Shown here: positions 11,431 through 58,530 of the stretch, piece after piece
How the letters are laid out: each line of letters starts with the position of its first letter
How positions within the stretch are numbered: position 1 is the stretch's first letter
NCBI GenBank assembly: GCA_009760885.1
Contig: CM019721.1
Span: 21,073,639-21,137,638, forward strand
Direction of reading: 5' to 3'
From: Achatina immaculata
Taxonomy: Eukaryota; Mollusca; Gastropoda; Stylommatophora; Achatinidae
DNA length: 64,000 nucleotides
Notes under the pieces: generated by a model
The model's input: the letters and a program-made list of their open reading frames with translations, nothing else
Told to the model about the DNA's origin: nothing
Database searches by the model: none
Made by a program: the position numbers and the translations under genes

Positions 11431-12318
11431 GAGAGTTTAACATGAATCTATATTTAGCCTTTATAGATTACTCAAAATGTAGACAAAGAATATTACGATG
11501 CCATAACAGTTGGAGGTTATGAAATACCAGAGATTAGATATGCTGATGACACAGTATTGCTGTCCACAACACAAGAAGGAATGGAAAAACTAATTATGTC
11601 AGTCCGCAAGAACAGCGAAGAGCAGAACCTCTATCTTAATGCAAAGAAAACTAAAGTGATGACAACTGACAAAACAAACAAGGCAACTGAAATATGTATC
11701 AGTGAGGAAAAACTGGAAGAAGTGGAGAGTTTTGAATATCTTGGATCACTACTAACTAATAATGGAGATACAATGTGGGAAATTAAAAGGAGGACATCTA
11801 TTGCTCTTCAGAAAGTAAAACAAATAAAGAATCTGTGGAGAGGAGCAGACAGAACCACAAAAATAAGATTTTTAAGGGCATGCATCTTTCCCATCGCAAC
11901 ATATGCCTGTGAGACCTGGACACTTAACAAAACAGCTGAGAAGCACATAAATGCCTTTGAATGTAAATGCTATAGAAGAGTTCTCCAAATATCGTGGACA
12001 CAAAAAAGAACAAATATATCTATACTACAAGAGCTTAATATTGAAGAAGGCTGGCTAGTAAAGAGGATTAAAGAGAGAAAACTTAAATATTTTGGCCACA
12101 TTAAACGTCATGATAATTTAGAGAAGACCGTATTGGAAGGATACATAATGGGAAAAAGAAAAAGAGGAAGACCGAAACGAAGATGGCTGCAAGACATCGT
12201 TGATGATCTGGAAATGGATGCAGCAGCAGCAGGCCATCTTGCTCACAACCGAGAGGCCTACAGGAGTGCTGTTTGGGATGCAAAGTTCCGCAAGGGACAT
12301 GCAAAGGAATGAATGAAA
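11431..12318 (+). mobile_element. LINE family C, copy 1 with internal deletion
   Basis: This is an RTE-like RT fragment. It starts NLYLAFIDYSK, then jumps directly to the region before the catalytic box (DKEYYDAITVGGYEIPEIRY), which removes the rest of the FIDYSKAFD block and the fingers. YADD is intact at 11539-11550. The frame then stays open for about 250 residues to the stop at 12310: LNAKKTKVMTT, ESFEYLGSLLTNNGDT, ACETWTLNKTAEKHINAFEC, RGRPKRRWLQDIVDDLEMDA. The 3' end is a GAAT-type repeat. Confidence 0.88.
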
Positions 12319-20852: not shown

Positions 20853-23800
20853 CTATCAAACACAAAAAAATAAAGAATATGTCTGTTTTTCTCTTTTGTT
20901 CACACACTGTAAGATCTGCATTATGTTATGAAGCAATGTTGATAACACATAAACATACAAAAAATAGAACGCTGGACTCACAAACACACAAAAAATATTT
21001 AGAACGCTGGACTCACAAACACAAAAAAATAGTTAGAATGCTGCACTCACAAACACAACAAAAATAATTAGAAATTTGGACTCACAAACACAAAAAAAAA
21101 AAACAGTTAGAACGCTGGACTCACAAACACAGAAAAAAAACAGTTAAAATGCTGGAATGGGAAACACACACAAAAAAAGGGTTAGAACGCTGGATTAACA
21201 AACACAAAAAAGGGTTTAGAATGCTGCATTCACAAAACACACAAAAAAGGTTAGAACGCTACATCCACAAAACACACAAAAAGGGTTAGAACTCTGCATT
21301 CACAAAGACATATAAATGGGTTAGAACGCTGGATTTACACACACATAAAAAGGGTTAGAACGTTGGACCCACAAACATGCAAAAATCAGTTACAACGCTG
21401 GAGTCACAGACACTGAAAAAACACACAAAAGAACAGTTAGAATGCCTGAATCATAAATGCAAAAAACAGTTAGAACACTGGATACACAAACACACAAAAG
21501 AACAGTTAGAATGCCTGAATCACAAATGCAAAAAACAGTTAGAACACTGGAATCACAAATTCCCACAGAAAAAGAAAACAGTTAGAATGCTAGAATCATA
21601 AAGACACAAACAATATTTAGAACACTGAAACACAAACATACACAAAAAACATTTAGAATGCTGGAATCACAAACACAGACAGAAAACAGTTAGAATGCAG
21701 GAACCAAAACCACACAAAACAGATAGAATGCTGGAATCATAAACACACAGAAAAAAAGTTAGAATGCTGGTTTCACAAACACACAAAAATCAGTTGAAAT
21801 GCTGAAATCATAAACACAGAAAAAAACAGATAAAACGCTGGAATCACAAAGATACAAAAAATAATTAGAACACTAGAATAATAAACACACAAAAAACATA
21901 TAGAACGTTGGAATCATAAACATACAAAAAAAACAGTTAGAACGTTGGACTCACAAACACATACAAAAACAGTTATAATGCTGTACTCGCAAACACACAA
22001 AAAGAGTTAGACTGCTGACCTCACATATGCACACACACAAAAAAAACAGAACACTGTACTCACATACACACAAAAAATAGTTATAACGCTAGACTCCCAA
22101 ACAAGCAAAAACAGTTAGAATGCTGAACTCAGAAACACAGAAGAAAAAAAAAACAGTTAGAATGGTGGACTCACAAGCACATTAAAAACAGAACATTACA
22201 CTCACAAACAAACAAAAAATAGTTATAACACTGGACTCACAAACATACAAAACAGTTATAATGCTGAACTCCCAAACACACACACAAAAGATTTAGAACA
22301 CTGTACTCACAAACACACACACACAAAAGATTTAGAACACTGTACTCACGAACACACAAAAAACATTTAGATTGCTGGATTCACAAATGCACAAAAACAG
22401 TTACAACACTGAACTCACAAACACATACAAAAACAGTTATAATACTGGACTCTCAAACACACACAAAAAAAGGTTAGAATACTGGACTCCCAAATACACA
22501 CACACACAAAACAGAAACTGGACTCACCAACACACACAAAACAGAACACTGGACTCACCAAAACACAAAAAACAGAACATTGGACTCACCAACACACACA
22601 AAAGAAGACCAGTTAGAATGCTGGATACACAAATACACAAAATTCAGTTAGAATGCTGGATTCACAAATACACAAAAACAGTTATAATGCTGAGCTCACA
22701 AACACAAAACAAGAGAAAAAAAAAGAATGCTGGAAGCACAAACAAGCAACAATAAAAATAAAAAAAAACAGACCTCTGGACTCACCAAGACACAGAAAAA
22801 AAAAAAAAACAGTTAGAACACTGAACTCAAAAACACAATAAACCCATTTAGAACACTGGAATCACAAATAAATGAAAAATAACAATTATAATGCTGGACT
22901 CACAAACACATGGAAAACAGAAAGCTAGACTCACCAATATACACACACACACACACAAAACAAAAGTTAGAATGTTGGAATCACAAACATTCAAAAAACA
23001 AAATGCTGGAGGCACAAACAAGCATAAAAAAAGAACAGTTAGAAGGCTTAACTCACAGACACTCAAGAAACAGTTAGAACACTTAACTCACAGACACTCA
23101 AGAAACAGTTAGAACGCTTAACTCACAGACACTCAAGAAACAGTTAGAACGCTTAACTCACAGACACTCAAGAAACAGTTAGAACGCTTAACTCACAGAC
23201 ACTCAAGAAACAGTTAGAACGCTTAACTCACAGACACTCAAGAAACAGTTAGAACGCTTAACTCACAGACACTCAAGAAACAGTTAGAACACTTAACTCA
23301 CAGACACTCAAGAAACAGTTAGAACACTTAACTCACAGACACTCAAGAAACAGTTAGAACACTGGTCTCGCAAACACACAAGAAACAGAACACTGGACAC
23401 ACAAAAAAACAGTTAAAATGCTGGAATCACAAACATGAACGAACAAAAGCAGTTAGAACGCTGGACTCACAAACACACATGCAAAAAAAAAAAAAACAGA
23501 ATGCTGGACTCACAAACACACATAAAAAAGTTAGAACACTGAACTCACAATCACACAAAAATAAGTTAGAATGCTGGATTCACAAACACACAAAAAAGGA
23601 TTAGAACGCAGGATTCACAAAAAAAAATAAACACACACACACACAACAGTTAGAAAACTGAACTCACAAACACACAAAAAAAAGTTATAATGCTGGACTC
23701 ACAAACACACAAAAAACAGAATGCTGGACTCACAAGCACACAAAAAACAGAATGCTGGACTCACAAACACACAAAAAACAGAACGCTGGACTCACAAACA

Positions 23801-24055
23801 CACAAACATAGTTAGAATGTTGATCTCATAAACACAGAAAAAATAATAGTTATAATTCTGGACTCACAAACACACAAAAAGAAACAGAACGCTGGACTCA
23901 CAAACACACAAAAAACAGAAGGCTGGACTGACAAACACACAAAAAACAGAAGGCTGGACTCACAAACACACAAAAAAACAGAAGGCTGGACTCACAAACA
24001 CACAAAAAACAGAAGGCTGGACTCACAAACACACAAAAACAACTATATCACCAGA
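20853..24055. repeat. About 35-bp degenerate minisatellite in the last intron
   Basis: About 90 diverged copies of CAGTTAGAACGCTGGACTCA plus CAAACACACAAAAAA. A block at 23035-23350 is homogenised (CTTAACTCACAGACACTCAA, nine units of 35 bp). Another near 23880-24040 has GAAGGCTGGACTCACAAACA. On the minus strand each unit reads TTTTTTGTGTGTTTGTGAG, close to the acceptor of the adjacent exon. The first 100 bp next to the exon are not clearly repetitive. Short open frames here are by-products. Confidence 0.88.
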
Positions 24056-25557: not shown

Positions 25558-26128
25558 ATTTCGTACGCTTTTCCGGTGACACTTTTCAAAATGGTGAAAG
25601 AGTCCTTAGATACGAGCGATGCCGAGCGAGAAAAAGGACGAGAAACATGGACATTTTACAATTTTTGACGACGTAGACAGGGGTATGGACATGGCCTGTG
25701 ACCACCCCGCTGCTTTCGAATGTATCCCAATTAGATCTAGACATATTTAGACGACTGGAGAAGTAGTTAAGAGGCTTTTTCAGATATTAATTTAGCGAGA
25801 ATGCAACACATAATCACAATACGAGATCGACAAGTAGATCTAGACATCTCAGATGGTAAGTAGTGCATATCTAGACCTAGCCGATGGTGAGCTGGACACA
25901 ATCAGTGTCTAAAAACATCACATTACTTCTTTTTTCCTAAAAAACTCTGCATTTATGAAATTTTCATTCATTTAGTTATACTTTGAAACATAATAAGTAC
26001 ACGGAAGTACATGGAAATACTGTTTTCCATTCCATTTTATAACTATACCCACTTACAGACCAAGACCCGCGCTTTTATTCTGACACTCCAATACACGTCC
26101 GTGTTTCTTCCTGCGGCACGGAATGAGT

Positions 26129-26725
26129 CAGTCATATCATTCACATCATTTAGTCATATCTTTCAATCACATCATTTAGGCACATCTATTAGACATATGA
26201 TTTAGTCACATCACTTAATCACATCATTTAGTCATATCTTTCAATCACATCATTTAGTCATATCTTTCAATCACATCATTTAGTCATATCTTTCAATCAC
26301 ATCATTTAGTCATATCTTTCAATCACATCATTTAGTCATATCTTTCAATCACATCATTTAGTCATATCTTTCAATCACATCATTTAGTCATATCTTTCAA
26401 TCACATCATTTAGGCACATCTATTAGACATATGATTTAGTCACATCACTTAATCACATCATTTAGTCATATCTTTCAATCACATCATTTAATCATATCTT
26501 TCAATCACATCATTTAGGCACATCTATTAGACATATGATTTAGTCACATCATTTAAGCACATCATTTAGTCACATCTTTCAATCACATCATTTAGGCACA
26601 TCTATTAGACATATCATTTAGTCACGTCATTTAATCACATCATTAGTCACATCTTTCAATCACATCATTTAGGCACATCTATTAGGCATATCATTTAGTC
26701 ACATCATTTAATCACATCATTTAGG
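26129..26725. repeat. 13/26-bp minisatellite, right part
   Basis: This continues the TCATTTAGTCACA array. At 26228-26410 it is homogenised into a 26-bp unit (CATATCTTTCAATCACATCA plus TTTAGT). Longer mixed periods follow to 26725. Confidence 0.9.
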
Positions 26726-26854: not shown

Positions 26855-26928
26855 CTTTAATATTTTTAATGTCTTCTTTTTTTCTTGGGTCATTTTCGTC
26901 CAAACAGTTCATAGCTGGGCCTTCCAGT
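26855..26928 (-). CDS. Linker exon of the Ig-type receptor
   Basis: This is a 74-bp exon on the minus strand between acceptor TTTGGCTGTCTTAG and donor AAAG-GTAAGA, a strong 5' splice site. It reads LEGPAMNCLDENDPRKKEDI then KNIK, starting in phase 2 and ending in phase 1. Joined to the upstream exon (…TGT GG) it gives Cys-Gly-Leu-Glu-Gly; joined downstream it gives Lys-Asp-Leu-Gln. It would supply the last strand of the Ig-like domain plus a charged juxtamembrane linker. Unlike most exons here, it is flanked by 100-200 bp of ordinary intron (26726-26854 and 26929-27149) rather than abutting an array. Phase agreement at both ends is the main support. Confidence 0.62.
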
Positions 26929-28395: not shown

Positions 28396-29924
28396 GTGAT
28401 AGAGACATTCTGTATACTACACATACCCACAGGAAGACATTCTGTCTACTACATATACCCACAGGAAGACATTCTGTCTACTACATATATCCACAGGAAG
28501 ACATTCTGTCTACTACATATATCCACAGGAAGACATTCTGTCTACTACATATATCCACAGGAAGACATTCTGTCTACTACATATATCCACAGGAAGACAT
28601 TCTGTATACAACAAACATCCACAGGAAGTAATTATATTTACTACACGTACCCACAGGAAGACATTCTGTATACAACACACATCCACAGGAAGTCATTATA
28701 TCTACTACACACACCCACAGGAAGACATTCTGTATACTATAAACATCCACAGGAAGTCATTATATTTACTATACACACCCACAGGCAGACATTATATTTA
28801 CTATACTTACCCACGGGAAGAAATTATATTTACTACACACACCCACAGGAAGACATTATATTTACTATACACACCCACAGGAAGACATTATATCTACTAC
28901 ACACACCCACAGGCAGACATTCTCTATACTACAAACATCCACAAGAAGTCATTATGTCTACTACACACACCCACAGGAAGATATTCTCTATACTACAAAC
29001 ATCCACAGGAAGTCATTATATTTACTATACACACCCACAGGAAGACACTCTCTATACTACAAACATCCACAGGAAGTCATTATATTTACTACACACACCT
29101 ACAGGAAGACATTATATTTACTATACACACCCACAGGAAGACATTATATCTACTACACACACCCACAGGAAGACATTCTCTATACTACACACATCCACAG
29201 GAAGTAATTATATCTACTACAGACACCCACAGGAAGACATTTTGTGTACTACAAACATCCACAGGAACTCATTATATCTACTACACATACCCACAGGAAG
29301 ACATTATTTCTACTACACACACCCACATGAAGACATATTTACTACACAAACCCACAGGAAGACATTATATTTACTACACATACCCACAGGAAGACATTAT
29401 GTGTACTATACACACCCACAGGAAGACATTATATTTACTACACATACCCACAGGAAGACATTCTGTGTACTATACACACCCACAGGAAGACATTATATTT
29501 ACTACACATATCCACAGGAAGACATTCTGTGTACTATATACACCCACAGGAAGACATTATATTTAGTACACATACCCACAGGAATACATTATTTCTACTA
29601 CACTTACCCACAGGAAGACATTACATCTACTACACATACCCACAGGAAGACATTCTCTATACTATGCACATCAACAGGAAGACATTCTCTATACTACACA
29701 CACCCACAAGAAGTCATTCTTTCTACTACACACACCAACAGGAAGACATTCTCTATACTACACACAAACACAGGAAGACATTCTCTATACTACACACACC
29801 CACAGGAAGTCATTCTATCTACTACACATACCCACAGGATGACATTCAAGTACTATACATACCCACAGGATGACATTCAAGTACTATACATACCCACAGG
29901 ATGACATTCAAGTACTATACATAC
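28396..29924. repeat. 32-bp minisatellite starting at an exon donor site (about 48 units)
   Basis: The unit is 32 bp: CCCACAGGAAGACATTCTGT plus ATACTACACATA. None of the three plus-strand frames of the unit contains a stop, so a 551-aa frame runs through most of it, cycling PTGRH, PQEDI and HRKTF. I regard this as spurious. On the minus strand every unit contains CTGTGG-GTATGT, the donor of the exon at 29925-30010, and the first units match the exon edge most closely. Confidence 0.93.
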
Positions 29925-30010
29925 CCACAGCGAATAACATCTCCTCCCATTTCTGTAGAGTAGTGGAGTATGTCAACACCAGTGCGGGTAATCAATAGTT
30001 TTTTATCGTG
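29925..30010 (-). CDS. Ig-like domain exon, second half
   Basis: This is an 86-bp exon on the minus strand between acceptor ACTTATATGTTTCAG and donor CTGTGG-GTATGT. It starts in phase 0 and ends in phase 2. It reads HDKKLLITRTGVDILHYSTE then MGGDVIRCG. The GGDVIRC segment sits where the F strand of an Ig fold has its second cysteine. Together with the first-half exon the Cys-Cys spacing is 46 residues, which is normal for Ig domains. Both flanks are minisatellites whose units copy the adjoining splice sites. The upstream exon ends in phase 0 and the next begins in phase 2, so the join is clean. Recognition is by fold pattern only. Confidence 0.66.
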
Positions 30011-30136
30011 CTGAAACATATAAGTGTAATATAAACATCATGCTGAAATATATAAGTGTAATATAAACATCATGCTGAAACATATAAGTGTAATATAAAC
30101 ATCATGCTGAAATATATAAGTGTAATATAAACATCA
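30011..30136. repeat. 32-bp minisatellite starting at an exon acceptor site, first part
   Basis: The unit CATGCTGAAACATATAAGTG plus TAATATAAACAT begins directly at the exon edge. On the minus strand each unit reads TTATATGTTTCAG-CATGAT, nearly identical to the true junction TTATATGTTTCAG-CACGAT. It is split by LINE B and continues at 31478. Confidence 0.9.
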
Positions 30137-31477
30137 AGTTACTGAATGATATTTACAACAGTGGTTATATTCCCAGTGACCTGATTAAATCCACGTTTAT
30201 AGCACTACCAAAGAAACCAGGTGCAAAGGAATGTGACGACCACCGGACTATCAGCCTCTCATGTCACATAACGAAGCTACTTCTGAGAATCATTATGAGA
30301 AGAACAAGGAAAAAGAAAAATGGAAATAGCAGATGAACAGTTTGGATTTGTTGAAGGAAAGGGAACACACAATGCCATTTATGCTTTACGAACACTAACA
30401 GAAAGAGCTTTAGAAGTACAGAAACATAGTGAAATTATTAAAATGCTTGAAGACATCAATATAGACAGCAAAGACTTGAGGATTGTAAAACATCTATACT
30501 GGCAGCAAGAAGCAGCAGTTCGAGTTGAAAATAGAATTGGAAAATGCCAACCTATAAAACAACGGGTGCGACAAGGATGTGTACTATCTCCAGACCTTTT
30601 TTCTCTGTACAGCGAGAATATTCTAAGAACAATCATCACAGAACCAGGCATAAAAATTGGAGGATACAATATTAACAACCTTCGGTATGCTCACGACACA
30701 GTACTGATAGCTGAGAACCAACAAGACCTGCAAAATCTCTTGGATAAAGTCGCCAAAGAAAGTGAACAGAAAGGCCTTGCTTTGAATATCAAAAAGACAG
30801 AGACTATGGTTATATCTAAGAAACAGAATCCACCAGTATGCAGTATTAAATTAAATGGAACCACTCTAAAGCAGGTGCAGAAATTCAAATACCTTGGAGC
30901 AGTAATAACTTCAGATGGGAAATGCAGAACAGAAATTAGGAACAGAATAGGTCAAGCAAAGACTGCATTTCAGAGAATGAGAAACATATTAGCTAACACA
31001 TCTTTGTCAATGAATGTTAGAAAACGAGTCCTAAAATGCTATATTGAACCTATCTTGTTATATGGAAGTGAATCATGGACAATAGGCAAGTCTGCACAAA
31101 AATCATTGGAAGCAGCAGAAATGTGGTTTATTAGAAGAATGTTGCGAATCCCCTGGACAGCAAAAATAACTAATGAAGAATGTATGAGAAGAGCTGGAGA
31201 GACAAAAAACCTTGTCAAAAACATAAGAGAGAGACAATGTACTTTCATAGGACACGCAATGAGAAGAGGGGGCATTGAAAATATTATAACAACAGGAAAA
31301 ATAGAAGGAAGAAGATCAAGAGGAAGACCAAGAGAAATGATACTGGACAGTCTGACGGGATGGCGTGAGAGGAGATCACCAACTGAACTGATGGCCTGCA
31401 TGAAGGATCAGGTACTCTGGAGAAGCATAATAGCCAACGCCAGTCGGCACGGCACCTGGTGATGATGATGATGATGA
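30137..31477 (+). mobile_element. LINE family B, longest copy, (GAT)n tail
   Basis: An RTE-like element, 5'-truncated. It shows LPKKPGAKECDDHRTISLSC, DEQFGFVEGKGTHNAIYALR, RQGCVLSPDLFSLYSENIL, KFKYLGAVITSDGKCR, RRMLRIPWTAK, GHAMRRGGIE and RGRPREMILDSL. Two lesions remove activity. The FxDxxKAFD block is deleted between VQKH and SEIIKM, and the catalytic box reads YAHD rather than YADD (LRYAHDTVL). A frame change near 30318 separates the start. The last 380 residues are otherwise open. ATATAAACATCA flanks both sides (30125-30136, 31478-31489), a possible target duplication within the host array. Confidence 0.9.
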
Positions 31478-32421
31478 ATATAAACATCATGTTGGAAACA
31501 TATGCGTGTAATATAAACATCATGGTGGAAACATATCATGGTGGAAACATATAAGTGTAATATAAACATAATGTTGGAAACATATAAGTGTAATATAAAC
31601 AGCATACTGAAACATATAAGTGTAATATAGACATCATTGTGGAAACATATAAGTGTAATATAAACATCAAGTTGGAAACATATAAGTGTAATATAAACAT
31701 CATGTTGGAAACATATAATTGTAATATAAAAATCATATTGGAAGCATATAAATGTAACATAAACATCATACTGGTAAAATATGCATATAAACATCATACT
31801 GGAAACATATGCATATAAACATCATACTGGAAACATATACATGTAAGTTAAACATCAAGCTGTAAACATATATGTGTAAATTAAACATAAAGTGGAAGCA
31901 TATATTTTTAAATTAAACATCAAGCTGGAAACATATACATGTTAATTAAACACAAAGCTGTAAACATATATGTGTAAATTAAACATAAAGTGGAAGCATA
32001 TATGTGTAAAGTAAACATCAAGCTGGAAACATATATGTGTAAATTAAACATCATGCTGGAAACATATACATGTTAATTAAACACAAAGCTGGAAACATAT
32101 AGGTGTAAATTAAACATCATGCTGGAAACATATACATGTTAATTAAACATCAAGCTGGAATCATATATGTGTAAATTAAACATCAAGCTGGAAACATATA
32201 CATGTAAATTAAACACAAAGCTGGAAACATATACATGTAAATTAAACACAAAGCTGGAAACATATACATGTAAATTAAACACAAAGCTGGAAACATATAC
32301 ATGTAAATTAAACACAAAGCTGGAAACATATACATGTAAATTAAACACAAAGCTGGAAACATAACTATAAATTAAACTTCAAGCTTTAAACATATACATG
32401 TAAATTAAAAATCAAGCTGTA

Positions 32422-32458
<37 letters not shown>

Positions 32459-33602
32459 CATCAAACTGGAAACATACACATGTAAATTAAACATCAAGCT
32501 GTAAACATATATGTGTAAATTAAACAACAAGCTGTAAACATATATGTGTAAATTAAACAACAAGCTGTAAACATATATGTGTAAATTAAACAACAAGCTG
32601 TAAACATATATGTGTAAATTAAACAACAAGCTGTAAACATATATGTGTAAATTAAACAACAAGCTGTAAACATATATGTGTAAATTAAACAACAAGCTGT
32701 AAACATATATGTGTAAATTAAACAACAAGCTGTAAACATATATGTGTGAATTAAACAACAAGCTGTAAACATATATGTGTGAATTAAACAACAAGCTGTA
32801 AAAATATATGTGTAAATTAAACATCAAGCTGGAAATGTATAAGTATGATATAAACATCGTACTGAAATCATATAAGTGTAATATAAATATAATACTTGAA
32901 AAACATGCATGTAATATAAAAATTCTTTAAACATATATGTGTAATATAAACATTACCCTGGAAACATGTACATGTAATATGAACGCCACGCTGGGAACAT
33001 AAACATGTAATAGAAATATGATGCTGAAAACATATACGTGTAATATAAATATCATGGTGAAAACATACACATATAATATAAATGTCATCCTGGAAACATA
33101 TACCTGTAATGTGATTGTCATGGTGGAATATATGTGTAATATCAACATTATGCTGGAAACATATACCTGTAATATAAAGGTCATGGTGGAAACATATATG
33201 TGTAATATAAACCTTATGCTGGGAACATATACGTGTGATATAAACATTATACTGGAGACATATCCATGTAACACAAAAGGTAAGCTGGAAACAAACATAT
33301 ATAATATAAAAATCAGACTGGAAACATAATCATGTAATTTAAAGATCATGCTCGAAACTTATACTTGAAATATAAACATCATATTCATGACGCATACATG
33401 TAATAAAAACATCAATCTGAAAATAAACACGTAAAATATAACGGCATGCTGGATACACATACGAGTAATATAAACATTACCCTAGAAACATACACGTGTA
33501 ACAGAAACATCATGCTGGAAATACATATATGTAATATAAGCACCGTGCTTGAAATATAAACGTGTTATAGAAACATCATGCTGGAAATATATATGTGTAA
33601 TA
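31478..33602. repeat. 32/33-bp minisatellite, acceptor-type, continued
   Basis: This continues the 30011 array. The first part is 32-bp; around 32150-32820 it is a 33-bp form (TAAATTAAACAACAAGCTGT plus AAACATATATGTG), giving long by-product frames on both strands. A TA dinucleotide run lies at 32425-32452. Nearly all units keep CTG or CTT followed by the A-rich tract, so the minus strand keeps a pyrimidine-AG end. Confidence 0.92.
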
Positions 33603-34262
33603 TATATACACATAGAAGGGACAGATATTGAAGAAGTCAATCAATTTGCATACCTTGGCAGCTACATAGACCAGGATGGTGACACTAGAAAGAAAGTTAG
33701 GATCAGAATTGCAAAAGCAGCATCAATCTTCAAGAATCTTGAGAACATATGGAATTCAAAAGTTATAAGCACAAAAACCAAGTTAAGACTATTCAATTCA
33801 AATGTAATACCCACCCTCATTTATGCATGCGAAAGCTGGAAAACAACTAAAGAAATAGAAAAGAAATTAGACTCTTTTGAAAACAAATGCCTAAGGAAAA
33901 TACTCGGCATCAAGTGGAATGAATTCAAGAACAATGCAGAGATAAGACAGATGACTGAACAACAACCAGTCTCACGGGTGATCAGGAAAAGGAGATGGAC
34001 ATATGTTGGTCACTTGATGAGAAGAAATGATCAGAGAATCCCAAAACAAGCTATCAAGTGGAACACAACAGGCCGAAGAAAAAGGGGCAGACCGCGTGAA
34101 ACTCTGAAGAGGACATTATTAAGAGAGGCCAAGTTAACAGGCATAAAATCCTTTGTTGAGGTTGAAAGACTCGCCGAAGACAGGAAAAATTGGCGAACTA
34201 CTTTGCGAGCCCTATGTGACGTCTAACGGCACGGGAAGGATATAAGATATAAGATATAAGAA
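33603..34262 (+). mobile_element. LINE family A, copy 3 (3' part, frame intact)
   Basis: This C-terminal half of family A begins IHIEGTDIEEVNQFAYLGSY. It lacks both single-base deletions of copies 1 and 2: NSNVIPTLIYACESWKTTKE is continuous, and the frame stays open to the stop at 34224-34226. The 3' tail is TATAAGATATAAGATATAAG. It is inserted in the 32-bp array. The first 18 residues of the predicted frame are array sequence. Confidence 0.9.
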
Positions 34263-34365
34263 TATATATATCATATTGGAAACACATATGTTTAATACAA
34301 ACATCATAGTGGCAACATATACATGTAATATAAACATCATGATGGAAATACATACATGTAACATA
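34263..34365. repeat. 32-bp minisatellite remnant between two LINEs
   Basis: Three diverged units of the array (AACATATACATGTAATATAA). No gene. Confidence 0.8.
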
Positions 34366-34690
34366 AATAGGTCTCACAGGCATATGTTGCGATGGGAAAG
34401 ATGCATGCATTTAAAAATATTATTTTTGTAGTTCTGTCTGCTCCTCTCCACAGATTCTTTAGCTGTTTTACTTTCTGAAGAGCAATAGATGTCCTCCTTT
34501 TAATTTCCCTCATTGTATCTCCGTTACTAATTAGTAGTGATCCACGATATTCTAAGCTCTCAACTTCTTCCAGTTTTTCCTCATTGATACATATTTCAGA
34601 TGCCTTGTTTGTTTTGTCAGTTGTCATCAATTTAGTTTTCTTTGCATTAAGATAGAGGTTCTGCTCTTTGCTGTTCTTACAGACTGACAA
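34366..34690 (-). mobile_element. LINE family C, copy 3 (minus strand fragment)
   Basis: This reads on the minus strand as part of family C: NLYLNAKKTKLMTTDKTNKA, EEVESLEYRGSLLISNGDT, NACIFPIATYACET. Both ends are truncated, without the GAAT tail. The frame is open apart from the junctions. Confidence 0.88.
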
Positions 34691-34936: not shown

Positions 34937-35064
34937 CCAAATTGTAAGGTTGACTGGAGGTTTTCCTGGACTGACCATGTGCAAGAGGTGGCAGGATATG
35001 ACTAGATTTCCGGTCAAAGACAGAGTCCCTGAGATAGATATGATTATTTCACCCGATGGCGGTT
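34937..35064 (-). CDS. Ig-like domain exon, first half
   Basis: This is a 128-bp exon on the minus strand between acceptor TCCATACCTTACAG and donor TTTGG-GTAGGC. It starts in phase 1 and ends in phase 0. It reads PPSGEIIISISGTLSLTGNL, then VISCHLL, then SPGKPPVNLTIW. The pattern fits strands A to C of an Ig-like fold: a PP linker, alternating hydrophobic residues, the B-strand Cys in VISC, and the C-strand Trp in NLTIW, 18 residues later. NLT is a potential N-glycosylation site. The two leading bases AA would complete Glu with the G ending the Thr-rich exon, giving VKLIVT-E-PPSG, a typical Ig linker sequence. The upstream array copies the acceptor site. No stop or frameshift is present. Confidence 0.68.
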
Positions 35065-35440
35065 CTGTAAGGTATGGATATATGATAGTTATCATACTAA
35101 TGTAGGTTCCACACGGCACTGATATATGATAGTTATCATGCTAATGCAGGGTCTACAAGGCATGGATATATAATAGTTATCATGCTAATGCAGGGTCTAT
35201 AAGGAAGGCATGGATATATAATAGTTATCATGCTAATGCAGGGTCTACAAGGCATTGATATATGATAGTTATCATACTAATGTAGGTTCTACATGGCACT
35301 GATATATGATAGTTATCATGCTAATGCAAGGTCTACAAGGCATGGATATATAATAGTTATCATGCTAATGCAGGGTCTACAAGGCATGGATATATGATAG
35401 TTATCATACTAATGCAGGGTCTACAAAGCATGGGTAAAAT
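35065..35440. repeat. 44-bp minisatellite starting at an exon acceptor site (about 8 units)
   Basis: The unit is 44 bp: GGCATGGATATATGATAGTT, then ATCATGCTAATGCAGGGTCT and ACAA. It begins at the exon edge. On the minus strand each unit ends TATCCATGCCTTGTAG, matching the true acceptor TATCCATACCTTACAG. Confidence 0.9.
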
Positions 35441-36140: not shown

Positions 36141-39100
36141 CAACTTTTGAACATCTAAATGAAAACACATGAATTACAATGCTTACTAACAGTAGTTAGT
36201 TCTGAACATATCACTGAATGCACAAGAATTACAACACTTAATAACACTAGATAGTTCTGAACATCTCACTGAATATGCAAGATTCCAACATTAGTTAGTT
36301 CTGAACATCTCACTGTATACACATGAATCATAACACTTACTAACACTAGTTAGTTCTGAACATCTCACTGTATACACAAGAAACACAACAGTTACTAACA
36401 GTAGTTAGTTCTAACATCTCATTGTATACAAAAGAATCACAACACTTCATAACAGTTGTTAATTCTGAACATCTCATTGTATACACAAGAATCAAAATGG
36501 TAACTAACAGTAGTTAGTTCTGAACATCTCACAGAATACACATGAATCACAAAACTTACTAACAGTAGTTAGTTCTGAATATCTCACTGTATACACAAGA
36601 TTCACAACATTTACTAACAGTAGTTAGTTCTGAACATCTCACTGAATACACAAGAATCACAACACTTGCTAGCAGTAGTTAGTTCTGAACATCTCACTGA
36701 AAACACATGAAGTACAACGCATAATAACAATAGTTAGTTCTGAACATCTTACTGAAAACACAAGAATCACAATGTTTACTAACAGTAGTTAGTTCTGAAC
36801 ATTTCACTGAATACACGAGAATCGTAACACTTACTAACAGTAGTTAGTTCTGAACATCTCACTGAATACACAAAGAAAGGAACACTTACTAACAGTAGTT
36901 AGTTCTGAACATCTCAGTGAATACACAAGAACCGCAATGTTTACTAACAGTAGTTAGTTGTGAACATCTCAATGAATACACAAGAATCATAACACTTACT
37001 AACAGTAGTTAGTTCTAATATCTCACTGAATACACACGAATCGCAACACTTACTAATATTAGTTATTTCTAACATCTAACTGAATACACAAAAATCACAA
37101 AACTTATTAACTATAGTTAGTTCTCAACATCTCACTGAATACACAAGAATCACAACACTTACTAAAAATAGTTATTTCTGAATATCTCACTGAAAACACA
37201 TGAATCATAAATCTTACTAACTGTAATTAGTCCTAAAATCTCACTGAATAGACAAGAATCACAACATTTACTAACAGTACTTAGTACTGAACATATCACT
37301 GAAAACACAAGAATCACAATACTTACTAACTGTAGTTAGTACTGAACATTTCACTAAATGCACAAGAATTGTAACACTTACTAACAGTAGATAGTTTTGA
37401 ACATCTCACTGAAAACACTTGAAGCACAAGGCTTACTAACAGTAGTTAGTTCTGAAAATCTCACTGAATACACAAGAATCACAACACTTACTAACAGAAA
37501 TTAGTTCTGAACATCTCACTGAAAACACAAGAATCACAAAGACTCCTAGGAGCAGTTAGTTCTGAACATCTCACTGAATACACAAGAATCACAAACTTAC
37601 TCACAGTAGTTAGTTCTGAACATCTCACTGTATACACATGAATCACAATGCTTACTAACCATAGTTAGTTCTGAACATCTCACTGTATACACAAGAATCA
37701 TAACACTTAATAACTGTAGATAGTTCTTAACATCTCACTGTATACAGAAGAATCACATTTATTAACAGTAGTTAATTCTTAACATCTCATTGTATACACA
37801 AGAATCACAATGGTAACTAACAGTAGTTAGTTCTGAACATCTCACTGAATACACATGAATCACAACACTTACTAACAGTAGTTAGTTCTGAACATCTCAC
37901 TGAATACACAAGAATCACAATGCTTACTAACAGTAGTTAGTTCTGAACATCTCACTGAAAACACAAGAATCACAATGCTTACTAACAGTAGTTAGTATTT
38001 AACATTTCACTTAATGCACAAGAATTGTAACACTTACTAACAGTAGATAGTTTTGAACATCTCACTGAAAACACTTGAAGCACAAGGCTTACTAACAGTA
38101 GTTAGTTCTGAAAATCTCACTGAATACACAAGAATCACAACACTTACTAACAGAAATTAGTTCTGAACATCTCACTGAAAACACAAGAATCACAAAGACT
38201 CCTAGGAGCAGTTAGTTCTGAACATCTCACTGAATACACAAGAATCACAAACTTACTCACAGTAGTTAGTTCTGAACATCTCACTGTATACACATGAATC
38301 ACAATGCTTACTAACCATAGTTAGTTCTGAACATCTCACTGTATACACAAGAATCATAACACTTAATAACTGTAGATAGTTCTTAACATCTCACTGTATA
38401 CAGAAGAATCACATTTATTAACAGTAGTTAATTCTTAACATCTCATTGTATACACAAGAATCACAATGGTAACTAACAGTAGTTAGTTCTGAACATCTCA
38501 CTGAATACACATGAATCACAACACTTACTAACAGTAGTCAGTTCTGAACATCTCACTGAATACACAAGAATCACAATGCTTACTAACAGTATTTAGTTCT
38601 GAACATGTCACTGAAAACACAAGAATCACAATGCTTACTAACAGTAGTTGGTACTGAACATTTCACTTAATGCACAAGAATTGTAACACTTACTAACAGT
38701 AGATAGTTTTGAACATCTCACTGAAAACACATGAAGTAAAACGCATAATAACAATAGTTAGTTCTAAACATCTCACAGAATACACAAGAATCACAACATT
38801 TAATAATAGAAATTAGTTCTGAACATCTCACCTAAAACAGAAGAATCACAAATAAACAGCAATTAGTTCTGAACATCTCACTGAATACACAAAATCACAA
38901 ACTTACTCACAGTAGTTAGTTCTCAACATCTCACTTTATACACATGAATCACAATACTTACTTACCATAGTTAGTTCTAAACATCTCACTGTATACACAT
39001 GAATCATAACACTTACTAACAGTAGTTAGTTCTAACATCTCATTGTATACACAAGAATCACAACACTTAATAACAGTAGTTAATTCTGAACATCTCACTG

Positions 39101-42100
39101 AAAACACAAGAATCACAATGGTTACTAATATTAGTTAGATCTGAACATTTCACAAAATACACAAGAATCACAAGATTTACAAACAGTAGTTAGTTCTAAA
39201 ATCTCACTGAATACACAAGAACGCAACACTTACTAACATTAGTTATTTCTAACATCTCAATGAATACACAAAAATGATAACACTTAATAACAATAGTTAG
39301 TTCTGAACATCTCACTGAATACACAAGAATCACAACACTTACTAAAAATAGTTAGTTCTGAACATCTCACTGAAAACACATGAATCATTATTCTTACTAA
39401 CTGTAATCAGTCCTAACATCTCACTGAATACACTAGAATCACAACACTTACTAACAGTAGTTAGTTCTGAATATATCACTGAAAACACAAGAACCACAAT
39501 GCTTACTAACAGTAGTTAGATCTGAACATTTCACAAAATACACAAGAATCACAAGATTTACAAACAGTAGTTAGTTCTAAAATCTCACTGAATACACAAG
39601 AACGCAACACTTACTAACATTAGTTATTTCTAACATCTCAATGAATACACAAAAATGATAACACTTAATAACAATAGTTAGTTCTGAACATTTCACTGAA
39701 TACACAAGAATCACAACACTTACTAAAAATAGTTAGTTCTGAACATCTCACTGAAAACACATGAATCATTATTCTTACTAACTGTAATCAGTCCTAACAT
39801 CTCACTGAATACACTAGAATCACAACACTTACTAACAGTAGTTAGTTCTGAATATATCACTGAAAACACAAGAACCACAATGCTTACTAACAGTAGTTAG
39901 TATTTAACATTTCACTTAATGCACAAGAATTGTAACAGTTACTAACAGTAGTTACTTCTGAACATCTCACTGAATACCCAAAAATCACAACACTTACTAA
40001 CAGAAATTAGTTCTGAACATCTCACTGAAAACACAAGAATCACATGAATCACAACACTTAATAACAGTAGTTAGTTATGAACATTTCACTGAATAAACAA
40101 GAACCACAATTTTTACTAATAGTAGTAAGTTCTGAACATCTCAGTTAAAACACAAGAATGACAATGCTTACTAACAATAGTTAGTTCTGAACATCTCCCT
40201 GATAACAAAAAAATCACAACACTTACTAATAGCAGTAAGTTTTGAACACCTCACTGAAAACAAAAAGAATCACAAAACTTACTAGCAGTAGTTAATTCTG
40301 TACATTTCACTGAAGACTCATAAATCAGAATGCTTACTAACAGTAGTTAGTTCTGAACATATCACTGAAAACACAAGAATCACAATGCTTACTAACAGTA
40401 GTTAGTTCTGAATACTTCACTGAATGCACAAGAATCGTAACATTTACTAACAGTAGTTAGTTCTGAAGATCTCACTGAATAGTCAAGAATCACAACACTT
40501 ACTAACAGTAATTATTTCTGAACATCTCACTTAAAACATTTTAATAAGAACGCTTACTAACTGTAGTTAGTTCTAAACATCTAATTGAATACACAAGAAT
40601 CACAAAGCTTACTAACAGCAGTTCTGAACATTTCACTGAATACACAAGAATCACACAGTTACTCACAGGAGTTATTTCTGAACATCTCACTGTAACCACA
40701 TGAATCACAACGCTTAGTAAACATAGTCAGTTCTGAACATCTCATAGTATACACATGAATAAGAACACTTAATGACAGTAGTTATATCTATCATCTCATT
40801 GTAAACACAAGAATCACAACACTTAATAACAGTAGTTAATTCTGAACATCTCATTGTATACTCAAGAATTACAGTGTAAATAACAGTAGTTAGTTCTGAA
40901 CATCTCACTGAATACACATGAATCACAACACTTACTAACAGTAGTTAGTTCTGAACATCTCACTGAATACACAAGAATCACAACGCTTACTAACAGTAGT
41001 TAGTTCTGAACATCTCACTGAAAACACAAGAATCACAATGTTTACTAATAGTAGTTAGTTCTGAACATTTCGCTGAATACACAAGAATAGTAACGCTTAC
41101 TAACAGTAGTTAGTTCTTAACATTTCACTGAATACACAAGAATAACAACATTTACTAACAGTAGTTAGTTGTGAACATCTCACTGAATACACAAGAATCA
41201 CAACACTTACTAACAGTAGTTATTTCTAACATCTTACTGAATAGAAAAGAATCGTACACTTACTAACATTAGTAATTTCTAACATCTCACTGAATAGACA
41301 CAAATCACAAAACTTAACAACAATAGTTTGTTCTGAACATCTCACTTAATACACAAGAATCACACCACTTACTAAAAATAGTTAGTTCTGAACATCTCAC
41401 TGTAAAAAACCATGAATTACAATGTTCGCTAACAGTAGTTAGTTCTGAACATCACACTGAATACACACGAATCACATTACTTATTAACAACAGTTAGTTC
41501 TGAACATCTCACTGAAAATGGAAGAATCACAATGCTTACTTACAGTAGTTACTTCTGAACATCTCACTATTTAAGCAAGAATGACAACGATTACTAACAG
41601 TAGTTAATTCTGAACATCTCATTGAATAAAGAAGAATAACAACACTTACTAACAGTAATTAGTTCTGAACATCTCACTTAATACACAAGAATCACAACGT
41701 TTACTAACAGTAGTTATTTGTGAACATCTCAATCAATACACAAGAATCACAACACTTACTAACAGTAGTTAGTTCTAACATATCACTGAATACACAATAA
41801 TCGCAATACTTAATAAGATTAGTTATTTCTAACATCTTACTGAATACACATGAATCACAATGCTTACTAACAGTAGTTAGTTCTGAAAATTTCCTCGAAT
41901 ACACAAGAATCACAACACTTGCTAGCAGTAATTAGTTCTGAACATCTCACTGAATACACAAGAACCACAACACCTAATAACAGTAGTTAGTTCTAATATC
42001 TCACTGAATAGACAAGAATCGCAACACTTACTAACATTAGTTATTTCTAACCTATGACTGAATATAAAAAAAATCACACCACTTAATAAGAATAGTTAGT

Positions 42101-42125
42101 TCTGAACATCTCACTGAATACACAT
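36141..42125. repeat. 55-bp minisatellite, left part (about 109 units)
   Basis: The unit is 55 bp: ACTAACAGTAGTTAGTTCTG, then AACATCTCACTGAATACACA and AGAATCACAACACTT. Units are diverged, and longer duplications are visible (about 655 bp at 37370-38690; about 381 bp at 39138-39900). Minus-strand frames with repeated SELTTV are by-products. On the minus strand each unit has TTCTTGTGTATTCAG followed by TGAGATG. Confidence 0.95.
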
Positions 42126-42154
42126 CTTTCTTCTTCTTCGTTCGCATTGTCTGT

Positions 42155-42964
42155 CTATATCTGCAGTCCTGTCTCTTGGATACATTTCACTGTTTTTTGT
42201 AATTCATGTATGGAACCATAGAGCTTATCTTCTTTAGTGGTTTCACTGGGCCAGTAATTATTTCTCAGTGTCTCATAGTTGATGCAGTTCTGGAGGATAT
42301 GTTCCACAGTTTGGGGCACCTGGGCACATGTACATAGATTAGTAATACCAACCTTAAACTTTGTATACATATGACTTCGGAGTCGGCTGTGTCCTGTTCG
42401 GAGATGGAAGATGGTGACTTGTTCCTTTCTGTTTAGCATGTGATAGTCATCATGTGGTGGTGTTTGTGGCTTCCTGTAGGTTTTTATCATGCTTTTCTTC
42501 TGATTATAAGTGATTGGTATGTCTGGTTGCTCCATTTCAGTGCCCTCTTTGGCCAGTTGGTCAGCTTTCTCATTGCCTGGTATCCCACAGTGGGAGGGAA
42601 TCCATTGCAAAGTGACTCCATGTTGTAAGCCAATTTTTGACAAGGCATCATTAAGGTCTGGTAGTTTGTTGCACTGAAGAGCCACCAGTACTGATCTTGC
42701 ATCTGTGAGAATTACTACAGGACATGTATCAATTCTGGAGTCTGATAGTTTTTCAACTGCAGCAATAATTGCCCTAACTTCTGCATCAAAGTTGTTGCAG
42801 TATTTTCCAGTAGGTATGGAAATCTTGTCAATGGTGTTGTTTGGATATTCAATATATGCTCCTGCCCCTCCATTCTTTATGGCATTATGTGCAGATCCAT
42901 CTGTATACACACGTATCCAGGTGTCACATGGATATTTGTCATCTAGAACACTAAGTGTGGCTGT
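42155..42964 (-). pseudogene. RNase H domain of LINE F
   Basis: This follows the RT in frame after a TAA. It has the four acidic positions of type I RNase H: YTDGSAHN, DAEVRAIIAA, LTDARSVLVAL and GNEKADQLAKEG, together with WIPSHCGIPGNEKAD. After it comes the usual C-terminal region with a Cys/His pattern (CTCAQVPQTVEHILQNC). The domain looks enzymatically complete. The reading frame ends at 42155. Confidence 0.9.
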
Positions 42965-44656
42965 TTATCTTACAAGACTGCTCTGCATCTCACCATTCTG
43001 CACACCTTTCACTTCAGTCTGAATAGTTATTTGTGTATAATCTGCTTCTTTCCATGGTGTATGCTCTGGTACAGATGATAATGGAGCGACTACAGTTGGA
43101 AGGTCAGGTATCAGCTTACGCATACGCTTGGCCTGATGAATAAAGCTGCTTCTTTTAAGCCGTCCTAATGCCAAGTTATTGAATCTCTCCTTCAGGGGAT
43201 GGCTTACAGAGCTAAGGAATTTTTCTCCCATGGTCATGACCTTTGTGTCTCTATGTTCCTTTAGTGGTTGAACACCAACTATTTTCTGCATTTCTACTAT
43301 TGGTGTGGACCTCATGGCACCTGTGATAATCCGTAGTGACTGATTTTGAACCTTGTCTAGATTATGCAGCGTAGTGTTTGATGCTGTGCACCAAGATGTT
43401 GAGCCATATTCTAAACGTGGTAGAATACTTTGCTGATATACATTCTTGAGGATTCTTTCACTAGCTCCCCATGTGGTTCCACTCAATTTTCTTAATATGG
43501 CTAGTTTTCTTCTGGCTTTTGCTTCTGCACTGTTGATGTGTTGCTTCCACGTCAGTTTTGAGTCAAGAGTCACTCCTAAGTAAGTGGGTTGGTTGTCCAT
43601 CCTTAAGGGTATTTCATTTACAAAGATCTTACCTGCTTTCTGTTTAGATGAGAGGGTGAACAGAGTGGTACTTGATTTCTCTGTGTTGATACTTACACAC
43701 CATTTGTTTGTCCATGATGTCAAGATGTCTGGTGCTCTTTGGAGTCTCTGTGTAGCAACTGTCGCATATTCATCTGTACACCACATGACCAGATCATCTG
43801 CATACAGTGCCGCTTTGATTCCATAGGGAAGTTCCTTGACCAGGTCATTAATGAATACAAGGAATAGTGTAGGCGAAAGGACTCCTCCTTGTGGTACACC
43901 GTGTCGCAGAAGTACTTTCTGGCTTTTGTGTCCATACATTACTACTCTAGCTCTTCTATTGTGTAAATAGGACTTTATCCAGTTGTACAGTCTTCCATTC
44001 ACATTGCAGTTTCTTAGTTTCCACAGCAGACCTTTTTTCCATACTTTATCAAAGGCTTTCTTCAGGTCTATCCACGCTGCTAGTACAAGGTTTTTCTCTT
44101 GGAATGCATCCTCAACTCTTGAGAGAGATAGGTCACTTGATTTCTGTACTGTAGTACTGCCTAAATCCTGCTTGTTGTGGAACGAGAAGGTTTTCACTTT
44201 CTAGGTACCATTTTAGCCTCAGGTCAATGATGCGTTCCATCATTTTGCATAGGCAGCTAGTGAGACTGATTGGCCTGTAGCTGGAGGCAGTATCACTGTT
44301 TTTCCCTGGTTTTAGCAGTGGTACCATGCTTGCTTCCTTCCAGATTTGAGGTAACTTACCTGTGCTCCAGCACATATTGAAAATATCCAACAGCTTTCCC
44401 ATTGCTGCCATTCCCAGGTTTTTGAACATTTCATTGGACACTCCATCTGGTCCTGGTGATTTCCTTGGTTTCAGTTTACTAACTGCTAGGTCTAACTCAC
44501 TGCGTGTGATTGGTGCATCCATGACCTCCACTTTTCTGACTTGTTCCTCCTCTTTCTGTGGCTCGATGCGCACTGTACGCTCCTTCTCTGGATGGATATC
44601 AATGTTGCAGTCCTGTGCAAACATGCGAGCAAAGTGATCTGCTACCTACTTAACTG
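42965..44656 (-). pseudogene. Reverse transcriptase domain of LINE F
   Basis: In order: LKPRKSPGPDGVSNEMFKNL, WKEASMVPLLKPGKN, SSYRPISLTSCLCKMMERII and QQAGFR, then a frameshift. After that come the catalytic block AWIDLKKAFDKVWKKGLLWK, LLRHGVPQGGVLSPTLFLVF, the intact YADD box in ALYADDLVMW, and a thumb region with YLGVTLDSKLTW and LPRLEYGSTSWCTA. All catalytic aspartates are present. The upstream portion lies at 44133-44656 and the rest at 42965-44197 in a second frame. A TAA separates it from the RNase H segment, which continues in the same frame. Confidence 0.9.
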
Positions 44657-47600
44657 ACTGAATACACATGAATCACAACACTTACTAAAAATAGTTAGTT
44701 CTGAACATCTCAATGAAAACACATAAATCACAATGTTCACTAAAAATAGTTAGTTCTGAACATCTCACTGAATACACAAGAATCAAAAGACTTACTAACA
44801 GTAGTTATTTCTGAACATCTCACTGAATACACAAGAATCACAATGCTTACTAACAGTAGTTAGTTCTGAACATCTCACTGAATACACAAGAATCACAACA
44901 CTTGCTAGCAGTAATTAGTTCTGAACATCTCACTGAATACACAAGAACCACAACACTTAATAACAGTAGTTAGTTCTGATCATCTCATTTAAAACACAAG
45001 AATCACAATACTTACTTATAGTAGTAAGTTCTGAACATCTCACTGAAAACAAAAAGAATCACAACACTTACTAAATGTAGTTATTTCTGAACATGCCACT
45101 GAATACACAGGAATTACAACACTTACTAAAAATAGTTAGTTCTGAACATGTCACTGAAAACAAATGAATCACAATCCTTACTAACGGTAATTAGTTCTGA
45201 ACACCTCACTGAATACACACGAATCACAATACTTAGTAGAAGTAGTTAGTTCTGAATATCTCACTTAATACATATGAATAACAATGCTTACTAACAGTAA
45301 TTAGTTCTGAAGATCTCACTGAATACAGATGAATCACAATGCTTAGTAACACTATTTAGTTCTGAACATCTCACTGAATAGACATAATTCACAACACTTA
45401 CTAACAGTAGATAGTTCTGAACATCTCACTGAATACAGAATAATTGCAACACTTGCTCACATTAGTTATGTCTAACATCTCATTAATACACAAAAATCAA
45501 AACAATTAATAAAAATAATTAGTTATGAAAATCTCACTGAATACACAAGAATCACAACACTTACTAACAATAGTTAGTTCTGAACATCTCACTGAATACA
45601 CAAGAATCACAACACTTACTAACAGTAATTAGTTCTAACATCTCACTGAATAAACAAGAATCACAACACATACTAACATTAGTTATTTATAACATCTCAC
45701 TGAATACACAAAAATCACAACACTTAATAACAATAGTTAGTTCTGAACATCTCACTGAATACACAAGAATAACAATGCTTACTAACAGTAGTTAGTTCTG
45801 AACATCTCACTGAATACACAAGAACCACAACACTTAATAACAGTAGTTAGTTCTGAACATATAACTTAAAACACAAAACTCACATTGCTTACTAACAGTA
45901 GTTAGTTCTGAACATCTCACAGATTAGTCAAGAATAACAACACTTACTAACAGTAGTTAGTTCTGAACATCTAACTGAATACACAAGAATCGCAACGTTT
46001 ACTAACAGTAGTTAGTTGTGAACATCTCACTGAATAGACACAAATCAGAACACTTAATAACAATAGTTAGTTCTGAACATCTCACTGAATACACAAGAAT
46101 CACAACACTAACTAAAAATAGTTAGTTCTGAACATCTCACTGGAAACACATGAATCACAATGTTCACTAAAAGTAGTTAGTTCAGAATATCTCACTGAAT
46201 ACACAAGAATCAGAAGACTTACTAATAGTAGTTATTTCTGAACATCTCACTGAATACACAAGAATCACAATGCTTACTAACAGTAGTTAGTTCTGAACAT
46301 ATCACTGAATACACATGAATCACAAAACTTACAAGCAGTAGTTTGTTCTGAACATATCACAGTATATACAGAAATCACAATGCAAATTAACCATAGTTAG
46401 TTCTGAACATCTCACAGTATACACATGAATCATAACACTTACTAACAGTAGTTAGTTCTGAAAATATCACTGTATACACATGAATCACAACAGTTACTAA
46501 CAATAGTTAGTTCTATCATTTGATTGTATACACAAGAATCACAATGGTAACTAACAGTTGTTAGTTCTGAACATCTCACTGAGTACAAATGAATCATAAC
46601 ACTTACTAACAGTAATTAGTTCTGAATATCTCAATGAATACACACGAATCACAATGCTTAATAACAGTAATCAGTTCTGAACATCTCACTGAATACACAT
46701 CAATGACAACACTTACTAGCAGTAGTTAGTTCTGAAAATCTCATTGAATACACATGAATCACAGTGCTTACTAACAGTAATTTGTTCTGAACATCTCACT
46801 GCATACACATGAATCACAATGTTTAGTAACAGTAGTTAGTTCTGAACATCTCACGGAATACACAAGAATCACAATACTTACAAACTGTAGTTAGTTTTGA
46901 AAATCTCATTGAATACACAAGTATTGCAACACTTACTAACACTAGTTATTTCTAACATCTCACTGAATACAGAGGAATGACAACACTTATTAACAATAAT
47001 TAGTTCTGAACATATCACTGAAAAACAAGAATCACAAATCTTCCTAACAGTAGTTAGTTCTGAAAATCTCACTGAATACACAAGAATAACAACGCTTACT
47101 AACAGTAGTTAGTTCTGAACATCTAACTGTATACATATTAATAACAACGCTTAATAAAACAGTTACTCCCGAACATCTCACTGAAAACACACGAATCATA
47201 TTTCTTACTAACCGTAATAAGTCCTAACATCTCATTGAATACACAAGATTCACAACACTTACTAACAGTAGTTAGTTCTGAACATCTCACTGAAAACACA
47301 AGAATCAAAACACTTACTATCAGTAGTTAGTTCTGAACATTTCATTGAATGTACAAGAATCGTAACACTTACTAACAGTAAGTAGTTCTGAACATCTCAC
47401 TGAATACAAAAAGAATAACATCACTTACTAACAGTAGTTAGTCCAAAACATCTCACTGAAAACACAAGAATCGCAACACTTGCCGGCAGTAATTAGTTCT
47501 GAACATCTCTCTGAATAGATGAGAATCACAATGCTTACTAACAGTAGTTAGTTCTGAACATCTCACTGAATACACAAGAATTACAACATTTACTAACAGT

Positions 47601-49140
47601 AGTTAGTTCTAACATATCACTGAAAACACATGAATCGCAACACTAAATAACAATAGTTAGTTCTGAACATCTCACTGAATACACAAGAATCACAACACTT
47701 ACTAAATATAGTTAGTTCTGAACATCTCACTGAAAAAACATGAATAAGAACACTTACTAACAGTAGTTAGTTCTGAACATCTCACTGAAAACACATGAAT
47801 CATAATTCTTATCAACCGTAATTAGTCCTAACATCTCACTGAATAAACAAGATTCACAACATTTACTAACAGTAGTTAGTTCTGAACATCTCACTGAAAA
47901 CACAAGATTCACAATGTTTACTAACAGTAGTTATTTCAGAACATTTCACTGAATACACGAGAATCATAACACTTACTAACAATAGTTAATTCTGAGTATA
48001 TCACTGAATACACAAGAATAACAACACTTACTTACAGTAGTTAGTTCTGAACATCTCACTGAATACACAAGAATCACAACGTTTACTAACAGTAGTAAGT
48101 TGTGAACATCTCACTGAATACACAACAATCACAACACTTACTAACAGTAGATAGATCTAACATCTCACTGAATACACAAGAATTACATCACTTATTACTT
48201 TTGTTATTTTTAACATCTTTCTGAATACACAAGAATCACAACACTTAATAAGAATAGTTGGTTCTGAAAATGTCACTGAAAACACAGCAATAAGAACGCT
48301 TAATAACAGTAGTTAGTTCTGAACATCTCACTGAAAACACAAGAATCACAATGTTTACTAACAGTAGTTAGTTCTGAACATTTTATTGAATGCATAAGAA
48401 TCGTAACACTTACTAACAGTAGATAGTTTTGAACATCTCACTGAAAACACATGAAGCACAACGCTTACTAACAGTAGTTAGTTCTGAACATCTCACTGCA
48501 TGCACAAGAATCACAAACTTACTCACAGTAGTCAGTTCTGAACATCTCACTGTATACACATGAATCACAATGCAAATTAACCATAGTTAGTTTTGAACAT
48601 CTCACTGTAGACACAGGAATCATAACACTTACTAACAGTAGTTAGTTCTTAACATCTCACTGTATACACATGAATCACAACAGTTACTAACAATAGTTAA
48701 TTATATCAACTGATTGTATACACAAAATCACTGCATTATCTAACAGTAGTTAGATACTGAACATCTCACAGAATACACATGAATCACAATACTTATTAAC
48801 AGTAATTAGTTCTGAACATCTCACTGAATACACAAGAATCACAATGCTTACTAACAGTAGTTAGTTTTGAACATCTCACTGAATACACATGAATCACAAC
48901 ACTTACTAGCAGTAGTTAGTTCTGAACATCTCACTGAATACACATGAATCACAATGCTTACTAACAGTAATTAGTTCTGAACATCTCACTGAATACACAT
49001 GAATCACAATGCTTAGTAACAGTAGTTAGTTTTGAACATCTCACTGAATACACAAGAATCACAACACTTACTAACAATAGTTAGTTCTGAACATCTCACT
49101 GAATAGGCAAGAATCACAACACTTACTAACAGTAGTTAGT
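44657..49140. repeat. 55-bp minisatellite, middle part (about 81 units)
   Basis: This continues the 36141 array on the other side of LINE F. Same unit, no exon seen. Confidence 0.95.
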
Positions 49141-51125: not shown

Positions 51126-51431
51126 CAAGAATCGTAAAACTTACTAAAAGTAGATAATTTTGAACATCTCACTGAAAACACATGAAGCACAACTATTTCT
51201 AACTGTAATTAGTTCTGAACATCTCACTGAATACACATGAATCACAACACATACTAACAGTAGTTAGTTCTGAACATCTCACTTAATACATATGAATCAC
51301 AGTACTTACTAACAGTAGTTAGTTCTGAACATCTGACTGAATACGCAAGAACACAACACTTACTAACAATAGTTAGTTCTGAACATCTCACTGAATAGGC
51401 AAGAACACAACACTTACTAACAGTAGTTAGT
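51126..51431. repeat. 55-bp minisatellite segment between the two gypsy copies
   Basis: About five and a half units of the 55-bp array. Their order of variants matches the array portion just left of 49141, so the 2.29-kb tandem duplication included array and retroelement together. Confidence 0.88.

Positions 51432-58496: not shown

Positions 58497-58530
<34 letters not shown>

Follow-up and report, generated by a model that had tools for sequence, protein, structure and literature searches.

The stretch of DNA analysed here (the window; 64,000 nucleotides, positions 21,073,639 to 21,137,638 of contig CM019721.1) contains a predicted gene of six exons, in which an exon of 86 bp, exon B (29925-30010), lies between two minisatellites whose units copy its own splice donor and its own splice acceptor. 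All exons and junction arrays of this gene are on the minus strand, and coordinates are those of the window. Three exon groups of the in-phase gene model, namely A/A', D and B, have arrays that carry the local splice site, and the units at A/A' additionally contain 14 bases of the exon. We interpret the arrays as minisatellites of the 'mirage' type, which crossed some exon-intron junctions in a spliced gene of ordinary type, located in minisatellite-saturated DNA, and give this interpretation a probability of roughly 0.8. The locus is of a known kind, with unusually many copies.

Exon B is open in one of three frames, in which it reads HDKKLLITRTGVDILHYSTEMGGDVIRC followed by GG. It is entered in phase 0 and left in phase 2, with in-phase joins to exon D before it and exon E after it. 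The donor-side array, delimited with Tandem Repeats Finder (TRF) to 28403-29930, consists of 48 units of the CTGTGG-GTATGT type (the hyphen marks the exon-intron junction). The units are 32 bp in length, except for the first three with 31 bp, and the first copy is the exon's own CTGTGG-GTATGT. On the acceptor side, units of 32 or 33 bp extend over 30005-33604 and 69 of them are usable. The exon-proximal piece (30005-30136, TRF) comprises four units of 32 bp of the TTTCAG-CATGAT type, and the distal piece (31486-33604, TRF) 65 usable units of approximately 33 bp. Both pieces are separated by a reverse-transcriptase fragment with a TGATGA tail on the plus strand (approximately 30137-31485, read from the sequence), which we take to be of the long interspersed nuclear element (LINE) type. 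Beyond a second LINE-type fragment, about three further units (3.2) of the same family were detected at 34261-34367 (TRF). The acceptor copy nearest to the exon ends in the exon's own TATGTTTCAG-CACGAT. For the unit counts, one partial row out of 49 was dropped on the donor side, as were acceptor rows with at least 16 gaps in 33 positions.

The initial annotation of this region described the 86-bp block as flanked by minisatellites copying its donor and acceptor, and for this predicted exon both the arrays and the shared junctions are unmistakable. It also stated that the arrays start at the exon edge. Indeed, no spacer is present on either side, since each array enters the exon by six bases, with an exact match on the donor side (CTGTGG) and a match at five of six positions on the acceptor side (CACGAT compared to CATGAT). 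The proposed number of about 48 donor units was reproduced, but the wording that each of them carries CTGTGG-GTATGT is too strong: the exact 12-mer CTGTGGGTATGT is found in 10 of the 48 units, CTGTGG in 40 and GT in register in 33. The same applies to the acceptor side, for which tens of units, each with TATGTTT(C)CAG followed by CATGAT or CTTGAT, had been claimed. Tens of units do exist (69), but the exact string TATGTTT(C)CAG plus C(A/T)TGAT occurs six times in the two pieces (once in the proximal and five times in the distal one), and AG is in register in 55 of the 69 units.

Exon B is not the only exon with such arrays. Splice sites inside or adjoining an array that copies them were observed at both edges of exon B, at the donor of A/A' and at the acceptor of D, all of these being predicted exons. 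The donor-side array of exon A' (58014-58398) has a unit of 23 bp, ATTGATTGTCACAG-GTGAGATAT, and enters the exon by 14 bases. The corresponding array of exon A is split by a LINE-type fragment into the pieces 58769-59096 and 59405-59459, the latter with 2.4 units at the exon edge. At exon D, the acceptor-side array (35069-35433) has units of 44 bp, and of the eight units listed seven have AG at the acceptor register and one has GG. The A/A' unit copies the last 14 coding bases exactly (14/14), and even with CAG dropped only 3 of 20000 shuffled sequences were as good. The unit at D resembles the first approximately 35 bases of the exon, with gaps; here, 32 of 5000 shuffles were as good, or 50 of 5000 when the first three bases were left out. 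A duplication crossing the junction is thus well supported by sequence for A/A' and suggestive for D.

Joined in the order A, A', D, B, E and F, the exons yield one open frame of 291 codons without an internal stop. The phases at the start and end of the exons are 1/1, 1/1, 1/0, 0/2, 2/1 and 1/1, respectively. A single frame is open in each of the exons A, A', D, B and E, and F has two. Exons D, E and F were chosen by eye for an open frame and splice signals; hence, the agreement in phase is supportive and no independent proof. The predicted exon A (59448-59714) is threonine-rich and mucin-like, with a Pfam Mucin match far below the cut-off, and the predicted exon A' (58385-58651) is its duplicate. 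Predicted exons D, E and F are located at 34937-35064, 26855-26928 and 26057-26110. No array lies within 130 bp of either edge of E. An array is present 26 bp upstream of the acceptor of F and, judged by eye, does not copy this acceptor. In the intron just upstream, A and A' are identical at 78 of 80 positions, whereas their first 35 codons differ by 24 amino acid-changing and 2 silent changes (dN, the non-synonymous distance, 0.36; dS, the synonymous distance, 0.10; Nei-Gojobori count). These differences suggest selection at the protein level, and for the tandemly duplicated mucin-like exon they suggest diversifying selection. A Cys-Trp-Cys pattern in D and B makes us suspect a divergent immunoglobulin-like domain, as a candidate only.

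Splice sites were scored with a generic weight matrix, and the true sites are included in all counts. The donor of exon B scores 6.1, a value at least equalled by 58 of the 264 GTs in its array, and the acceptor scores 3.1, at least equalled by 46 of 62 AGs. The initial annotation had named many decoy splice sites as a possible consequence. The donor of A' scores 12.1 (reached by 6 of 31 GTs) and the acceptor of D 5.4 (reached by 2 of 17 AGs). Of the 263 decoy GTs of exon B, 261 would bring a stop into the reading frame of the lengthened exon, so that mis-splicing at the donor-side units would be unproductive.

In terms of mechanism, each array would have arisen by tandem duplication or unequal exchange across a junction. 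Selection would then hold the copy at the exon edge only, while the remaining copies would drift, which would explain why some units lack GT or AG. Splicing would pick the exon-proximal site, as in exon definition, and a separate function of the arrays is unlikely.

The initial annotation knew of no described class of intron built from serial copies of its own splice site. This does not hold, as tandem repeats across exon-intron boundaries are known from publications on amphioxus, where they are called 'mirages' (PMC3087553, PMC3902484). According to the accessible parts of these papers, mirages duplicate an exon-intron boundary, either 5' or 3', in tandem and in the manner of minisatellites, and occur in the genes of Adh3, the globins BflGb6 and BflGb9 and troponin C, with repeats in PGBD5 likened to them (PMC3087553, PMC3902484). 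The PGBD5 repeats were added by the second paper, which cites the troponin C case (PMC3902484). Units measure 10-72 bp in Adh3, 150-160 bp in BflGb6, and 60 and 108 bp in PGBD5 (PMC3087553, PMC3902484). Variation in copy number among haplotypes or cells counts among the traits of mirages. In the parts of Ebner et al. 2010 available, AG/GT is described as kept in many, although not all, mirage units, RT-PCR (reverse transcription PCR) suggests regular splicing and intron gain from mirages is proposed (PMC3087553). The arrays in the window share the boundary-spanning tandem units, and AG or GT is likewise kept in many units and not in all (GT in 33/48, AG in 55/69). Their units also include exon sequence, with 14 bases at A/A', six bases per side at B and a suggestive likeness at D. 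They differ in copy number, since 48 and 69 units flank a single exon here, compared to 6 and 3 in the BflGb6 haplotypes given in the accessible text.

Two human systems can also be compared. One is an interferon-induced transcript, presumably 6-16/IFI6. Its minisatellite unit carries a splice donor, and the sites are used according to the title of the report (cited in PMC2572611). The donor within the unit is a shared feature; going by that title, the donors are used there, whereas those in the window are putative sites. The other comprises genes in segmental duplications with variable internal tandem repeats of units of approximately 30 bp, some of them at exon-intron boundaries, which, in the part of the paper available, are said to form novel introns via cryptic splice sites (PMC2812944). 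These repeats have approximately four copies on average, in contrast to the long arrays in the window, for which no new intron is shown. Minisatellites are also present in the first intron of an earthworm metallothionein gene, with copying of splice sites not stated in the accessible parts of the paper (PMC12783039), and a C. elegans paper, likewise accessible in part, treats minisatellites and splicing (PMC4039745). In the accessible parts of the open-licence papers listed by our literature searches, no example came up in which a single exon is flanked on either side by comparable numbers of copies. The locus is a clean high-copy example of a mirage, with donor and acceptor arrays flanking one exon and dozens of decoys in each. 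It offers a natural test of exon-proximal site choice, and of whether junction duplication moves exon ends or creates introns. If the source organism is not a cephalochordate, the range of reported mirages would become wider.

Several observations weigh against our interpretation. A search of a large protein collection returned no relative, and all six exons remain predictions. Pfam searches with the exon peptides yielded only low-complexity matches below the cut-off, and searches against solved structures yielded either no match or seven chance-level matches at E-values of 1.4-1.7. At exon B, the likeness of the donor-side unit beyond the last six exon bases is weak (equalled by 778 of 20000 shuffled sequences for the proximal unit and by 1059 of 20000 for the consensus), and the acceptor-side unit showed no anchored likeness to the exon beyond six bases in the shuffle test. 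The identity of acceptor-side units to the unit at the exon edge drops with distance (rho -0.45, p 0.0001), and the exon end could accordingly be special. Finally, random intron sequence would give much the same in-frame stops in the extensions of exon B.

The weak or absent likeness beyond six bases at exon B fits an unlikely alternative, according to which the introns acquired their arrays independently and these did no more than extend up to the exon, with the junction match as a remnant left after selection on the splice site. Arrays are indeed found everywhere in the window. They cover 52% of it, and 84% of the part outside the transposon mask; in the non-transposon part of the gene span, they cover 85%, or 72% when an array of 13 kb is left out. 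For these values, TRF rows were merged by hand and the mask was drawn by eye from open reading frames (ORFs). Of the 12 modelled exon edges, four are located in an array, a fifth (the D acceptor) is 4 bp off and in register, and seven lie outside; with A and A' counted once, 4 of 10 edges touch an array. Compared to a coverage of 52-84%, 5 of 12 edges is no enrichment, and exon edges lie in arrays no oftener than other intronic bases. Given a coverage of 52%, or 84% outside the mask, it is not unusual in this window for an array to contain an exon edge. Against an independent origin speak the A/A' unit with its 14 exact exon bases and the D unit with its gapped likeness to the first approximately 35 bases, which make a junction-crossing duplication probable at these exons. 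As proposed in the initial annotation, the arrays adjoin exon B and repeat its own donor and acceptor, but its proposal that slippage began across these two junctions is conjectural, with a likeness to the exon beyond six bases that is weak on the donor side and absent on the acceptor side.

On the donor side of exon B, the drop in identity with distance from the exon-edge unit is weak (rho -0.27, p 0.07). Among 11 other arrays, the one at 5425-6483, with no known exon beside it, showed a stronger drop from one end (rho -0.71), and the one at 26137-26724 a similar drop (rho -0.50) from the end located 26 bp off exon F. The remaining nine showed no such drop at p < 0.05. On these numbers, a special role of the exon end can be neither affirmed nor dismissed. 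It is improbable, in our view, that introns in this genome grow mainly from their ends, with splice junctions seeding minisatellites and many of the distant arrays being fossil copies of splice sites. For the 24 arrays off modelled junctions, donor scores of the consensus units were higher on the gene strand (Wilcoxon p 0.049), a weak hint of junction seeding. The p-value for all 29 arrays was 0.078, and the acceptor scores of the consensus units showed no strand difference.

It is also improbable that the extra splice sites are functional, be it as alternative donors and acceptors or by slowing splicing, and produce regulated isoforms as reported for the human interferon-induced transcript. 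Many units score at least as high as the true sites of exon B. However, all but two of the 263 donor decoys would bring in an in-frame stop, and in register GT is missing from 15 of 48 and AG from 14 of 69 units, so that the units give no clear sign of sites being kept. For the mirages of amphioxus, the accessible text states that splicing is left undisturbed (PMC3087553). Finally, that 29925-30010 is no exon and the pattern a chance feature of repeats would agree with the missing homologue and the choice of D, E and F by eye, but is very improbable given the in-phase model of six exons, the splice signals at the other exons, and the mostly amino acid-changing differences between A and A' next to an intron identical at 78 of 80 positions, which suggest protein-level selection.

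Besides the junction arrays of the mirage type, further repeats were observed in the window. A candidate exon C (24070 downwards, minus strand) was omitted from the model; when it is joined to F in phase, its translation is SEKL followed by a stop. It is possibly the last exon, a further mirage or no exon. The acceptor at this position has a strong pyrimidine tract, TTCTGAATACAG, and stands directly before an array of 3 kb (20946-24042), the 35-bp units of which carry the donor-like TTTGTGAGT. An array at 56159-57648 has a 55-bp unit containing CTG-GTAAGA on the gene strand; its donor score is the highest of the 29 consensus units, and no exon was seen beside it. A unit of 55 bp, in which GTAAGT resembles a donor and TATTCAG an acceptor, makes up the array of approximately 13 kb at 36148-49148. 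A reverse-transcriptase element interrupts this array at approximately 42158-44645, and the unit recurs, next to the same flank, in a shorter array at 51124-51439.

In three non-array stretches searched in three frames, Pfam detected one transposon domain (zf-RVT) and again the weak Mucin match. A 30-bp repeat at 3276-3854 and 6767-7045 is open on both strands and encodes decapeptides similar to DDKDEKVIVG. A reverse-transcriptase ORF is located at 11467-12309. Among the best 120 of its 246 matches, the closest relatives are 95% and 94% identical and lie on short ENA and JGI contigs, which makes it probable that public sequence collections contain the source organism or a near relation of it; relatives from a sea cucumber and a lizard are 41% identical.

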